This document shows, one piece after another, positions 7,166 to 11,840 of a DNA stretch of 38,803 bases. This stretch comes from Microcaldota archaeon (GTDB lineage Archaea; Micrarchaeota; Micrarchaeia; Micrarchaeales; CABMGC01): contig JAKASF010000008.1 of the NCBI GenBank assembly GCA_021828295.1, positions 1 through 38,803 on the forward strand. Direction: 5' to 3'. A program made the position numbers and the translations under genes. A model generated the notes under the pieces. The model did not search any database and had not been told where the DNA came from. It was given only the letters and a program-made list of their open reading frames with translations. The number at the start of each line of letters is the position of its first letter. Position 1 is the stretch's first letter.

Positions 7166-7181
7166 ATATATTTAAATATAT
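7166..7181 (+). promoter_or_regulatory. TATA-region palindrome upstream of the Hint-containing surface protein
   Basis: Perfect 16-bp palindrome ATATATTTAAATATAT, 43 nt before the ATG at 7225. Confidence 0.55.
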
Positions 7182-7224: not shown

Positions 7225-9588
7225 ATGCCTAATAATAGGGGTGCGCGTAGGGCGGGAAGAGCAAGGGGTAGCAGCAAAAAGGCGCAATCCGCGCTCGAGT
7301 ACCTGCTTACGTACAGCTGGGCGATACTCCTCGTTGCGATTGTAGTTGCAGTCCTCTACCTCTTCGTCTTCGCTCCTTCTAACATCACTCCTACCACATG
7401 CGTCTTCACCGGAGGCACCTACTGCCAGGACATAGTCTTCGGCTCCAACACGGCGCAGACCAGCATGGCGATGTTCCTCACCAACACCCAATCATATGCG
7501 ATCGCGTACCCGCAGGTAACGCTCAACTACAGCGGCACAAGCACAACGGCCTCGTGCTCGCCTAACCTTGTTCTCGAGGGCGGGGCGATAATCTGCAACG
7601 TCAACGTGCCCATAGCCGCCATTGCCCTGGGCTCTCTCGTATCGGGCAAGCTGGTGCTCAGCGCCATACCCTGCCCAGGCGCAGACCTCAGCACATGCTC
7701 CTCGTCATCGAGGCAGTCGTACACAGGAACGTTCAACACGCACGTCTCACCTCTCCTCTCGTCTACGCCTTCCTCTATAGCGGTCACGGTCGGCAACGCA
7801 ACCCAGGCCGCTAACGGGGACCTCGACCCGGTCAACGCCACCGTGCTCCTGCTCGGCAACCCCGCCCAGGGCGCTACCGTTTCGTTCACCCAGTCGAACA
7901 GCTTCGCCACACTCGGGCCCAGCCCCACCAGCACCGACAGCGCCGGAGTGGCGCACGCGCACATCTCAAGCACGCAGACAGGCTACACGCTCATAACAGC
8001 AAACTTCATAGACGACTCCAACACAGTCCTCGTCCAGTTCTACACACCTGCATCGGCCTCGGTCAGCATCTCCCCAAGCATGAAAAGCACCGTCTGCTCA
8101 GGCAACGGCGGCACGCAGGTGCTTACCATAGACGGCTCGAGCTACACATGCTCGCAGCTCCCGGTGAACCTCAACTACAACCAGAACACGCAGCACAGCT
8201 ACACGTGCATCAGCCCCGTCTACGGAGGAACCGGCACGCAGTACGCAGCTACAGGAGCCAGCGGCTGCGGCGCGTCAGGCGGGGCCAGCGGCACCTTCAC
8301 CGTAGGAGCCTCGGGAACGAGCTGCAACCTGTACTGCAGCTACCAGACCCAGTACTATCTCACCAACCAGGCGAGCCCCAGCGCGGGCGGCAGCGTATCG
8401 CCTTCGAGCCAGTGGTACAACTCAGGCACCCAGGTCTCGATCAGCGAGACGCCCAATGCCGGTTACACGTTCACGGGCTGGACAGGCAGCGGCTCCGGCA
8501 GCTACACCGGCTCGTCTTCAAGCAACACGGTAACGATGAACGGCCCGATAACGCAGACGGCAGACTACCAGTCGCTGATTAGCTCTTCCACAACGCTTCT
8601 CTCCACGACCACGCAGTCTTCTTCTTCCACCACCCAGTCCACCTCCATCAGCTCCACCACCACCTACCAGTCCTCCACCACGACGCCCACCACCTACCAG
8701 TCCTCCACCACCGTCAGCCCCACCACCACTATATTTACACCATCCTGCAATACGTGCTACGCAACCACCAATCCCGGCTGCCCTGGCGGTTGCCCATATC
8801 CTTACTACTTCAGCGACGCCTCCTGCGGTGCGCTCTGCCCCGGAAACGTTTGCAGCGGCGGCTATTCCAGCTTCGAGTGCGGCACAACTCCGTACGGCTC
8901 CACCTCCATCAGCTCCACCACCACCATTACGCAAACCTGCAATGGCTCGTACTGCTGCTCAACCGGCACTACAGCGTGCGGCAACACATACTCCTGTCCC
9001 GCCGGCTGGTCGTGCACCGGAGCATGCCAGTGGAAGATCTATGTCGACCCGCTCTCTGGAATATGTGCGGTCGAAGCCTGCGGCGGCGTCTCGAACGGGG
9101 CTACTTATCTGTGCCAACCCGAGAGCAGCACCACCACCTACCAGTCCTCCACCACCGTCGGGTCCACCACCACCGTCTGCGATTCCTCGTTTGCGGGGGC
9201 AACGCCGGTATTGATGGCTGACGGTCAGTACAAAAACATAGAATCGATAAAGCCCGGGGACGCTGTGATGTCTTACGACTTTAAAAGCGGCACGCTTGTG
9301 CCAAACATAGTGGTGCAGGTAGTGAACTTCACCGGAAAGCACGTGTACCTGATAAACGGGGCACTGCAGACGGATGCCGGAGAGCTCTTCTACGTTCGAG
9401 GACAAGGCTGGGTGTCTGCAGCCAACCTTACCGTCGGGGACGGCATCACCGATCCGGTCTCAGGCGGCTACATCCTCGTATCTTCAATCAAAATGAGCGA
9501 CTCAAACACGACCTTCTATGATGCGCTCGGGACCATAAGCAACAACTTCGTTGCCGCAGGCTACCTGAGCGACTTTTGCACTTCGTGA
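7225..9588 (+). CDS. Multidomain surface protein: class III signal peptide, Ig-like and InlB-like modules, Cys-rich modules, Ser/Thr linkers, C-terminal Hint-like domain
   Basis: KKAQSALEYLLTYSWAILLVAIVVAVLYLF class III signal; Big-1-like VNATVLLLGNPAQGATVSF...STDSAGVAHAHISS; InlB-like SAGGSVSPSSQWYNSGTQVSISETPNAGYTFTGWTGSG; C-terminal SFAGATPVLMADGQYKNIESIKPGDAVMSYD Hint block. Confidence 0.85.
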   Translation: MPNNRGARRAGRARGSSKKAQSALEYLLTYSWAILLVAIVVAVLYLFVFAPSNITPTTCVFTGGTYCQDIVFGSNTAQTSMAMFLTNTQSYAIAYPQVTLNYSGTSTTASCSPNLVLEGGAIICNVNVPIAAIALGSLVSGKLVLSAIPCPGADLSTCSSSSRQSYTGTFNTHVSPLLSSTPSSIAVTVGNATQAANGDLDPVNATVLLLGNPAQGATVSFTQSNSFATLGPSPTSTDSAGVAHAHISSTQTGYTLITANFIDDSNTVLVQFYTPASASVSISPSMKSTVCSGNGGTQVLTIDGSSYTCSQLPVNLNYNQNTQHSYTCISPVYGGTGTQYAATGASGCGASGGASGTFTVGASGTSCNLYCSYQTQYYLTNQASPSAGGSVSPSSQWYNSGTQVSISETPNAGYTFTGWTGSGSGSYTGSSSSNTVTMNGPITQTADYQSLISSSTTLLSTTTQSSSSTTQSTSISSTTTYQSSTTTPTTYQSSTTVSPTTTIFTPSCNTCYATTNPGCPGGCPYPYYFSDASCGALCPGNVCSGGYSSFECGTTPYGSTSISSTTTITQTCNGSYCCSTGTTACGNTYSCPAGWSCTGACQWKIYVDPLSGICAVEACGGVSNGATYLCQPESSTTTYQSSTTVGSTTTVCDSSFAGATPVLMADGQYKNIESIKPGDAVMSYDFKSGTLVPNIVVQVVNFTGKHVYLINGALQTDAGELFYVRGQGWVSAANLTVGDGITDPVSGGYILVSSIKMSDSNTTFYDALGTISNNFVAAGYLSDFCTS
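8638..8711 (+). repeat. Ser/Thr linker-coding repeats, first cluster
   Basis: 24-nt unit CACCACCTACCAGTCCTCCACCAC at 8658-8681 and 8688-8711, with a third exact copy at 9132-9155; 27-nt unit TCCACCTCCATCAGCTCCACCACCACC at 8638-8664 with an exact copy at 8899-8925. Confidence 0.9.
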
Positions 9589-9594
9589 TTCCAG

Positions 9595-10413
9595 ATGGAT
9601 TCCGAGTCATCAACGCCAACACAGCCAACGGCTGAAAATGTAGAGACTCCGAGCTTCGGAACAGGTCCGCAGGAAGTCTCTACCGGCAACTCAGCTACTA
9701 GGAGAAAGGTAGCGATGATCTTCATAGTCATGATTGCGATTGCAGCGGTAGCATACTATCTTCTTGCATATAGCGGCCGTGGGGTCCCTGTCTCTACCAC
9801 CTCTTCCGCCAGCACTTCCGCCACCACGTCAATCCAGGTCAGACTTCTTTCACAAAACGCGGTCAATAACTCGCTGCTCGGTTTCTCGCAGCTCGGCCTT
9901 CCAAACGCCTATGGCAGTTACTCCAGCACCCAAGCATCAAATGCGACCACATGCGGGTCTACAATCTCTGCAGTCTACCGCCTGTACGCCCTGCCGGCCA
10001 CCCTGAACGCCACAAACTATTCCATGCTCAACCAATCGCTGCCCTTCGTGGTTTACGAGAATGCGCTCACTTTCGCTTACGCTTTCCCTGCGGCGAAGGC
10101 GCCACAGTCCTGCACCAATATCGAAGGCGTCAGCGGCTTCGCGCAGAGCAACTCGACGCTTAACGTAAGCAACGCGGTCGGCACCGCGGCCTCGCTCATA
10201 GAGCTGGACAACTTCAGCGCGGCGGGGCTGAACGCGACCCATACGCTATACACAGGCCCCATGCCCCATCTCAGCTGGTACGAGGTGGATTTCGCATATC
10301 GAAACGTGCTCGTCTACATCGGCATTTGGGGTTTCACCGGCCACATGGACACAGGCAAACTACTGAATTACTCTAAGGCAGTATACTCAAACCTGCTGGC
10401 TTCATCTTCGTGA
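9595..10413 (+). CDS. Signal-anchored extracellular protein, paralog A
   Basis: Cytoplasmic N-terminus, one TM (VAMIFIVMIAIAAVAYYLLAY), Thr/Ser stalk, about 10 N-x-S/T sequons; homologous to the product of 11118-11840. Confidence 0.8.
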   Translation: MDSESSTPTQPTAENVETPSFGTGPQEVSTGNSATRRKVAMIFIVMIAIAAVAYYLLAYSGRGVPVSTTSSASTSATTSIQVRLLSQNAVNNSLLGFSQLGLPNAYGSYSSTQASNATTCGSTISAVYRLYALPATLNATNYSMLNQSLPFVVYENALTFAYAFPAAKAPQSCTNIEGVSGFAQSNSTLNVSNAVGTAASLIELDNFSAAGLNATHTLYTGPMPHLSWYEVDFAYRNVLVYIGIWGFTGHMDTGKLLNYSKAVYSNLLASSS

Positions 10414-10453
10414 TTTCCTGCGCGCCCACAAATCGTTTATAAAACGTTACTCT

Positions 10454-11014
10454 TTGCTGTTTGTCGGTATTGCGACCCTTGCCATAGCCACGGCCATGTT
10501 GGTCAGCATCCACCTCCCGCCCGCTTCTCTTTACTTCAATCGGGCACTTGTGAACAGCACCTTCGGCGGCGCTTATTCCATAGAGAGCTACAACTGCACT
10601 TCCTCCAGGTACCTGTCCGAGACAGGCATCAGCAAGCTCTGTACAGAGTCGCTAAAAGCCACAAACGCTTCCAACTTATCAGAGCCGGTTTCTTTCATAA
10701 TCGCCTTGTACCTTTTCAACAGTTCGCAGTCGGCAGCCGGGTTTGTCCAGAGGATACCGTTTAACCTAAACTCCACCCCCTGGCCTTCCGCTGTCAAAAT
10801 AGAAAGCGGGAACCTGAGCTCAGAAGGCGCAAGCGTATTCTACTCCAGGGAGCTGCTGCGCTCGGCGCAAGACTACGTAATCACCACCGTATTCATAGAA
10901 AACAGAAGCGTTCTTTTCAGTGTGACAGCCGAAGGTCTAGCAACAACGGTCAGCAACTCAACGCTTGAAAACTATACAATCAGGCTTTCAGACGCGCTAA
11001 TGAGCTCAGGATGA
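10454..11014 (+). CDS. Signal-anchored, sequon-rich secreted protein of unknown function
   Basis: 186 aa from TTG; N-terminal TM (LFVGIATLAIATAMLVSI), about 10 sequons; TTTATAA-like element just upstream. Start codon uncertain. Confidence 0.6.
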   Translation: MLFVGIATLAIATAMLVSIHLPPASLYFNRALVNSTFGGAYSIESYNCTSSRYLSETGISKLCTESLKATNASNLSEPVSFIIALYLFNSSQSAAGFVQRIPFNLNSTPWPSAVKIESGNLSSEGASVFYSRELLRSAQDYVITTVFIENRSVLFSVTAEGLATTVSNSTLENYTIRLSDALMSSG

Positions 11015-11117
11015 GCCACAGGTGACCTTTCTGGCCGATGCGCTTCGGCAAGGCACGCATGCGTAAGCTCTATAAACTTTAAGAGTGCGAATCTGAAGGT
11101 ATGCGATCGTAGATTGA

Positions 11118-11840
11118 ATGAAAAGAAAAACGAAAGGAAAAGCAGACGCATCAGTCATCATAGCCGTTTTAGCCATTCTGGTAGCGGTAGCGGCATATGG
11201 CATTTACTCGCACGGCATTGCGGTTCCCGTATACGCGTCTACCAGTTCGACGCCCCCCGCGCAATCCGGGCTGCTTTCGCAGAGTTTCACCAACACTTCG
11301 CTGCTCAGCTCTCCCATGCAGTTCGGTCTTCCAAGCACGTTCTACGTCCGCTCCGGCCCGAACACCACGTATGTCTCGCCGTGTGGCCAAATATCGCTGG
11401 AGGTATATCACCAGTATCAACTGCCAGCTACTCTAAACGCCACAAACTACTCGAAGCTCAACGAATCAACTCCTATTTTCTTCTACGATCTGGAATTCAC
11501 TTTCAACAAGGTATTCGACAGCACGACCCCTCCAGAATCCTGCACTTACATCGAGGACGTCGGAAACTATGCGCAGAGGAGCTCAACGACCGACGTAAGC
11601 GGTCAGATCGGCACGAGGGCCTCGCTCATAGAGCTGGACAACTTCAGCGCGGCGGGGCTGAACGCGACCCACGTCCCGTACACCGGCCCGACCCCGCACC
11701 TGAGCTGGTACGAGGTAGAATTTACATACAGGAACGTTTTGGTAGTTTGCGGCGAATGGAGCTTCACGGGACAGATGAACCCAGCTGTGCTGGTAAACTG
11801 CTCTAGAAGGATATATGCCAACCTGCTTGCAGCCCCGTGA
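11118..11840 (+). CDS. Signal-anchored extracellular protein, paralog B
   Basis: Shares LPATLNATNYS, ASLIELDNFSAAGLNATH and PHLSWYEV-F-YRNVLV with paralog A. Confidence 0.8.
   Translation: MKRKTKGKADASVIIAVLAILVAVAAYGIYSHGIAVPVYASTSSTPPAQSGLLSQSFTNTSLLSSPMQFGLPSTFYVRSGPNTTYVSPCGQISLEVYHQYQLPATLNATNYSKLNESTPIFFYDLEFTFNKVFDSTTPPESCTYIEDVGNYAQRSSTTDVSGQIGTRASLIELDNFSAAGLNATHVPYTGPTPHLSWYEVEFTYRNVLVVCGEWSFTGQMNPAVLVNCSRRIYANLLAAP

Follow-up and report, generated by a model that had tools for sequence, protein, structure and literature searches.

A probable pilin-type surface protein of Micrarchaeota that ends in a Hint-fold domain with a replaced active site and is followed by a membrane protein gene

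Introduction

What does a Hint-fold domain do at the extreme C-terminus of a protein that begins like a pilin, if the residues of its active site have been replaced? The question is raised by a gene of a Micrarchaeota archaeon (assembly GCA_021828295.1, 0.77 Mb), for which we analyzed a stretch of 38,803 nucleotides (contig JAKASF010000008.1, positions 1 to 38,803 of the forward strand; hereafter, the whole of this stretch is called the window). A life in attachment to other archaea is assumed for Micrarchaeota, and host-recognition modules are often swapped between close relatives. An earlier note on this DNA, made from the letters alone, had described a class III signal peptide joined to a terminal Hint-like domain and considered the product a filament tip or surface appendage protein carrying an autoprocessing or Hint-derived cap. 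A search of the open literature found no paper on the Hint domain and Micrarchaeota or on the Hint domain and archaeal type IV pili, and the sole paper found on the Hint domain and DPANN concerns inteins.

Results

The reading frame at 7225-9588 of the forward strand runs from ATG to TGA and its translation has 787 aa, as described earlier; the features are listed in Table 1. The Ig-like and InlB-like modules of the earlier description both passed the Pfam cut-off, the former as Big_1 (residues 186-272, E = 1e-8) and the latter as a divergent InlB repeat (residues 382-449, E = 1.5e-12), and the two Cys-rich modules were recovered as Cys clusters at residues 508-552 and 572-630, carried on Ser/Thr linkers. 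Many relatives (L042, L043, L051 and others) have long (TNAA)n or (TNGA)n repeat stalks in place of the Ser/Thr linker, and in G037 one repeat stalk before the Hint domain is masked with N.

Table 1. Features of the Hint gene and of the genes that follow it in the window
Feature	Position	Strand	Remark
Possible archaeal TATA-like element (TTTAAATAT)	7171..7179	+	About 46 nt 5′ of the ATG; putative function, from sequence
Class III leader peptide, residues 1-20	7225..7284	+	Predicted prepilin-peptidase cut after A20
Pilin moiety: hydrophobic helix Q21-A50 and head to about residue 175	7285..7749	+	Homology to stand-alone pilin
Ig-like domain Big_1, residues 186-272	7780..8040	+	Pfam
Divergent InlB B-repeat (Flg_new_2), residues 382-449	8368..8571	+	Pfam; also TIGR02543
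Ser/Thr-rich linker, residues about 452-505	8578..8739	+	Sequence
Cys-rich module 1, residues 508-552, 8 Cys	8746..8880	+	Cys positions
Cys-rich module 2, residues 572-630, 10 Cys	8938..9114	+	Cys positions
Hint-fold domain, residues 655-783	9187..9573	+	Profile, alignment, AF2, Foldseek
Hint key positions			Ser655 = Cys1; Asp717/Glu720 = TxxH; Asp783 = terminal Asn
Partner gene, 272 aa, single N-terminal TM helix and ectodomain	9595..10413	+	6 nt after the Hint stop
Small divergent partner relative, 186 aa	10454..11014	+	Similar gene kept in Hint-less congener G016
Partner paralog, 240 aa, ectodomain 54% identical	11118..11840	+	Sequence comparison

The N-terminus, KKA followed after the predicted cut by QSALEYLLTYSWAILLVAIVVAVLYLF, has the class III layout of a basic leader, Ala at -1, Gln at +1, Glu at +5 and a hydrophobic core. 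The Pfam model of the class III signal peptide reported no match on the 787-aa protein; the assignment is borne out by this layout, by paralogous N-termini (12 in the source genome and 7-34 in seven congeners, according to a paralog search) and by a prepilin peptidase (A24) gene in the source genome, which also encodes three T2SSE ATPases and one T2SSF protein. Moreover, the source genome has a stand-alone pilin ORF of 209 aa to which residues 3-156 align (36% identity, E = 5e-13). Since short stand-alone pilins match the first approximately 150 residues, homology, beyond the motif, identifies the N-terminal part as a pilin moiety. The gene and its genome thus combine the marks of a type IV pilin, namely signal peptide, Glu+5, helix, pilin-homologous head, peptidase and ATPase, and Big_1, the InlB-like module and Hint are grafted onto the pilin moiety as in a modular pilin. 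The surface or filament role proposed earlier is well supported by these results, and assembly into a filament is its conjectural part.

On contig 17 of G022 (L136), genes for a pilin of 159 aa, a T2SSE and a class III signal peptide protein of 1057 aa lie close together, which connects the large proteins of this class with a pilus locus. Among the class III signal peptide proteins of the source genome, several with lengths of 300-387 aa (L143, L144, L145 and L146) appear LamG-like by eye.

The C-terminal domain was at the border of detection in the full protein, where the PT-HINT model matched residues 664-765 with E = 5e-6 and 27.2 bits, just under the cut-off of 27.7, and it passed the Pfam cut-off when searched as an isolated domain (E = 5.7e-7). 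An AlphaFold2 (AF2) model computed for residues 652-787 from six sequences had a mean pLDDT of 82.7. When the model was compared with the PDB by Foldseek, 57 matches below 1e-3 were obtained, the best 50 of the 57 being all inteins, BIL or Hedgehog domains, and the top matches were the BIL domains 6y75 and 2lwy, with TM of 0.80-0.86 over the query. The structure prediction, which had been set beforehand as a check of the terminal Hint domain, thus confirmed the Hint fold as a predicted all-beta horseshoe.

To define the family, the domain profile was searched against 301 Micrarchaeota genomes, the relatives being metagenome assemblies, some of them fragmentary. Matches were found in 39 genomes. 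According to the loci read individually, approximately 31 of the 301 genomes have a C-terminal Hint on surface-type proteins, and in the rest of the 39 the match is an internal intein or a canonical Hint standing alone. A class III signal peptide is present in 25 of the 28 complete ORFs of the C-terminal Hint group, the exceptions being an ORF beside a masked stretch (L045), a broken frame (L104) and one with no recognizable motif (L103). This recurrence indicates that the architecture is not due to chance. In the complete ORFs the Hint domain lies at the extreme C-terminus with a tail of 0-6 aa. Each protein has one or two copies, with two in tandem in many proteins, and the tree indicates that tandem Hint1 and Hint2 descend from an old duplication that has been retained. 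The Hint ORF of L104 (5690-6838, minus strand) is separated from its stalk by an apparent frame break: it has no early start codon, and N-terminal similarity lies upstream of it. A viral origin gained no backing, as profile patterns, a search of low sensitivity, found no relative in viral contigs.

Active-site positions were determined from two independent alignments, one of the profile to 2lwy and the other to the Hint of L033, an RHS-associated domain, with FYVRGQGWV as the anchor and a gap-free match of QTTAEHPFYVRGQGWV to QTDAGELFYVRGQGWV. Both place Ser655 at Cys1, and Asp717 and Glu720 at T and H of the block-B TxxH motif. Counting copies with letters at the position concerned, position 1 is Ser in 50 of 52, and TxxH has become DxxE, with T replaced by Asp and H by Glu in 51 of 53 each. 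The exceptions other than fragments are the second copies of G233 and G235, where all three residues are lost together. A sister subclade (L053, L054, L055, L102, L103 and L104) keeps Cys1 and has TxxD in 7 of 7 copies; this is the best place to seek residual autoprocessing. Of 59 copies, 57 have Ser or Cys, and with it a nucleophile, at position 1. In the inteins and canonical Hint domains recovered by the same search as controls, Cys and His are each found in 9 of 9; the block-B motif of the controls is TxxH, and the true inteins likewise retain the penultimate His and the terminal Asn.

The C-terminal end of the domain is also altered. In place of the penultimate His stands I, A, V, G or S, so that the block G His-Asn of C-terminal cleavage in class 1 inteins and BIL is absent. 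Where the chain continues, Asp occupies the position of the terminal Asn in 39 of 40 copies, whereas 14 second copies that end at this position have Thr, Ser or Gly; because this contrast tracks the paralog lines, it does not represent 14 independent events. The residue preceding Ser655 is unconstrained (G, S, C, T, N, V or I). Compared with an autoprocessing Hint, the nucleophile is present, in S-type copies as Ser and not the Cys of BIL and Hog, and TxxH is DxxE or, in the sister subclade with its Cys1, TxxD. No block F Cys, which the WCT motif of class 3 inteins includes, was found in the alignment. A canonical intein, BIL, Hog and class 3 intein were ruled out on these residues, and toxin release of the PT-HINT kind was ruled out because nothing follows the Hint domain. 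Isopeptide crosslinking is disfavored, as the conserved columns have no invariant Lys. With Cys1, the block-B His, the penultimate His and the terminal Asn replaced by conserved residues family-wide, the autoprocessing proposed earlier is unsupported in its canonical form, and the Hint-derived cap proposed beside it is the better half of that suggestion.

Selection on the Hint domain was determined by the method of Nei and Gojobori. In the 16 pairs with unsaturated dS, dN/dS was 0.03-0.20, whereas dS was saturated in three further pairs. This strong purifying selection indicates that the domain is in use and maintained, and is not decaying.

A second gene, absent from the earlier note as is the family itself, accompanies the Hint gene. 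Directly downstream of most Hint genes, usually at -17 to +90 nt and often within 30 nt, lies an ORF with one N-terminal hydrophobic helix and an ectodomain of approximately 170-250 aa, which we call the partner. Leave-one-out ectodomain profiles recovered 26 of 30 members below 1e-10 and two at approximately 1e-3; the small members of the type starting at 10454 were not recovered by these profiles. No recurrent Pfam family was found in the partner, one isolated weak match being to a yeast protein model, nor was a PDB match found, and the AF2 model of its ectodomain (pLDDT 45) was too low to use. At 9595-11840 the window has three tandem members of this uncharacterized single-pass membrane protein family; in two families of the order, members of it are again found next to class III signal peptide proteins.

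Tallied by hand over the 301 genomes, Hint and partner occur together in 26, Hint only in 5, partner only in 5 and neither in 265, a co-occurrence for which the Fisher test ignores the relatedness among genomes. Within genera g1, g15, g17 and g24, setting inteins aside, the two are found in the same genomes. Six Hint loci have no recognized adjoining partner (L035, L046, L050, L054, L089 and L091). G202 and G253 have class III signal peptide proteins with Cys-rich ends and a partner-family gene, and no Hint; some class III signal peptide proteins that lack a Hint are thus also followed by partner-like genes, and the partner occurs outside Hint loci too.

The type of head and the type of partner segregate together. 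The partner tree has two sides, each with 99/99 support, one formed by the partners of window-type and Cys-type Hints and the other by those of T-type Hints, and both taxonomic families are present on both sides. In the window's genus the locus is syntenic, with SecF-like and NMD3-like genes, then the pilin-type gene, and a radical SAM gene on one or both sides. At this locus, head and partner are of the window type in G000 and G021 and of the tandem T-type in G017 and G020, and G016 has neither Hint nor main partner while the stalk persists. The N-terminus of G000 is closest to those of G017 (84%) and G020 (80%), as against 65% and 63%. Because it is nearest to G017 and G020 despite the other head type, this result indicates that head and partner were swapped or lost together and that the stalk stayed.

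Discussion

Taken together, these results make it probable that the gene encodes a modular surface protein of the pilus type, whose Hint head has been re-tooled and no longer splices and which has a membrane partner of its own. The class III signal peptide would be cut by the prepilin peptidase of the source genome, and the hydrophobic helix would then be built into a filament of the type IV pilus family or retained in the membrane. The stalk would consist of the Ig, InlB, Cys-rich and Ser/Thr segments, with the Hint-fold domain exposed as the head. In this head, which would perform no canonical splicing or cleavage, the old active site may have become a conserved Ser-Asp-Glu site with a new purpose, most likely recognition, whether of a neighboring cell, of a ligand on a surface or of the complex of the filament itself. 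The downstream membrane protein may be devoted to this head and contact it physically, acting for instance as chaperone, anchor or display partner.

The early steps of this scheme would differ if the protein never polymerized and its class III helix were an anchor only, the stalk and Hint acting at the cell wall from a membrane or S-layer attachment. The protein is very large for a pilin, many class III signal peptide genes are scattered in the source genome, and no pilus assembly gene was seen adjoining the Hint gene in the window; nevertheless, the N-terminal 150 residues are homologous to short stand-alone pilins and pilus machinery is encoded in the genome, and we regard an anchor-only role as improbable. 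Loss of the canonical catalytic residues is also what a degenerating intein or BIL would show, left without function at the end of a surface protein after intein invasion. A relic of this kind is largely refuted by the dN/dS values, and it fits poorly with replacement residues that are invariant over two taxonomic families, with the retention of the ancient Hint1/Hint2 duplication and with a head type that co-segregates with a partner gene, so that we give it hardly any weight.

The likeliest of the alternatives is a Hint domain still active through an altered site, although we think it unlikely. Ser655 would undergo an N-to-O acyl shift aided by Asp717 and Glu720 in place of Thr and His, and the ester would be hydrolyzed or transferred, which would release the head or link the stalk to a lipid, glycan or partner protein, in a linkage resembling that of Hedgehog to cholesterol. 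Class 1 inteins keep only Ser or Cys at position 1 and a terminal Asn, Gln or Asp, and they tolerate loss of the block-B His and the penultimate His (PMC7664689). The family keeps both of these omnipresent features, the nucleophile failing only in the one pair of second copies that also lacks D and E and the terminal Asp being kept where the chain continues, and chemistry could therefore still take place. In accordance with that, carboxylates would be a better fit than His for an acidic outside, and the ectodomain of the pilin-Hint protein has 5% charged residues compared with 25-32% in cytosolic neighbors, a composition typical of acid-facing proteins, so that it may face acid. On the other hand, every S-type copy lacks the two histidines that serve as general acid/base, and the terminal Asn as well, the residue ahead of Ser655 is free to vary, and there is no C-terminal partner sequence for splicing. 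More doubtful still is a new Hint chemistry, in which an extracellular Ser-Asp-Glu Hint, possibly acid-adapted, forms an ester or releases the head on meeting its co-inherited membrane partner or a host surface; if true, it would be a Hedgehog-like attachment reaction on an archaeal appendage.

Under the favored reading of a non-splicing recognition head, the locus offers a concrete, family-wide candidate pair of head and partner for surface-fiber recognition in Micrarchaeota, exchanged among close relatives. The family also shows clearly how selection can preserve a Hint domain after one alternative set of residues has taken the place of the catalytic set, and roles of the Hint fold besides splicing become directly testable.

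Among known systems, Hedgehog is likewise a secreted protein whose C-terminal end is a Hint domain. The Hog domain depends on Cys1, TxxH and Asp46-type chemistry together with a sterol-recognition region, whereas Cys1 and TxxH are absent from the window's Hint. BIL and PT-HINT domains (6y75, 2lwy; PF07591) share the fold and significant sequence similarity and are likewise the C-terminal part of long secreted proteins, but they keep Cys1, TxxH and HN and typically precede a toxin or tail, while in the Micrarchaeota S-type all of these are replaced and nothing follows the domain.

On the side of the filament, archaeal type IV pili are predicted to include large class III signal peptide proteins as adhesins or minor pilins (PMC4858521), and in Mancarchaeum Mia14 type IV pilus genes and surface genes, some of them near pilus loci, are proposed as the host interface (PMC5498576). 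Both describe large variable surface proteins linked to type IV pili, as here, and in the portions of these two sources that were covered no Hint head or Hint-tracking partner was found described. The protein is best described as a modular pilin, like PilB and PilC of the type IV pili of Streptococcus sanguinis (PMC9934059), which also have a class III signal peptide and a pilin moiety with modules grafted C-terminally. In PilC an Ig-like module precedes the binding head, comparable to the Ig module and head of the Micrarchaeota protein, and PilC is stabilized by a second protein, PilA, as a companion. The heads of this bacterium are lectin and von Willebrand A domains, in contrast to a Hint head in an archaeon, and its companion PilA is a pilin, whereas the Micrarchaeota partner is a single-pass membrane protein with no class III signal. 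What is new here is a Hint head with a replaced active site together with a co-inherited membrane partner gene.
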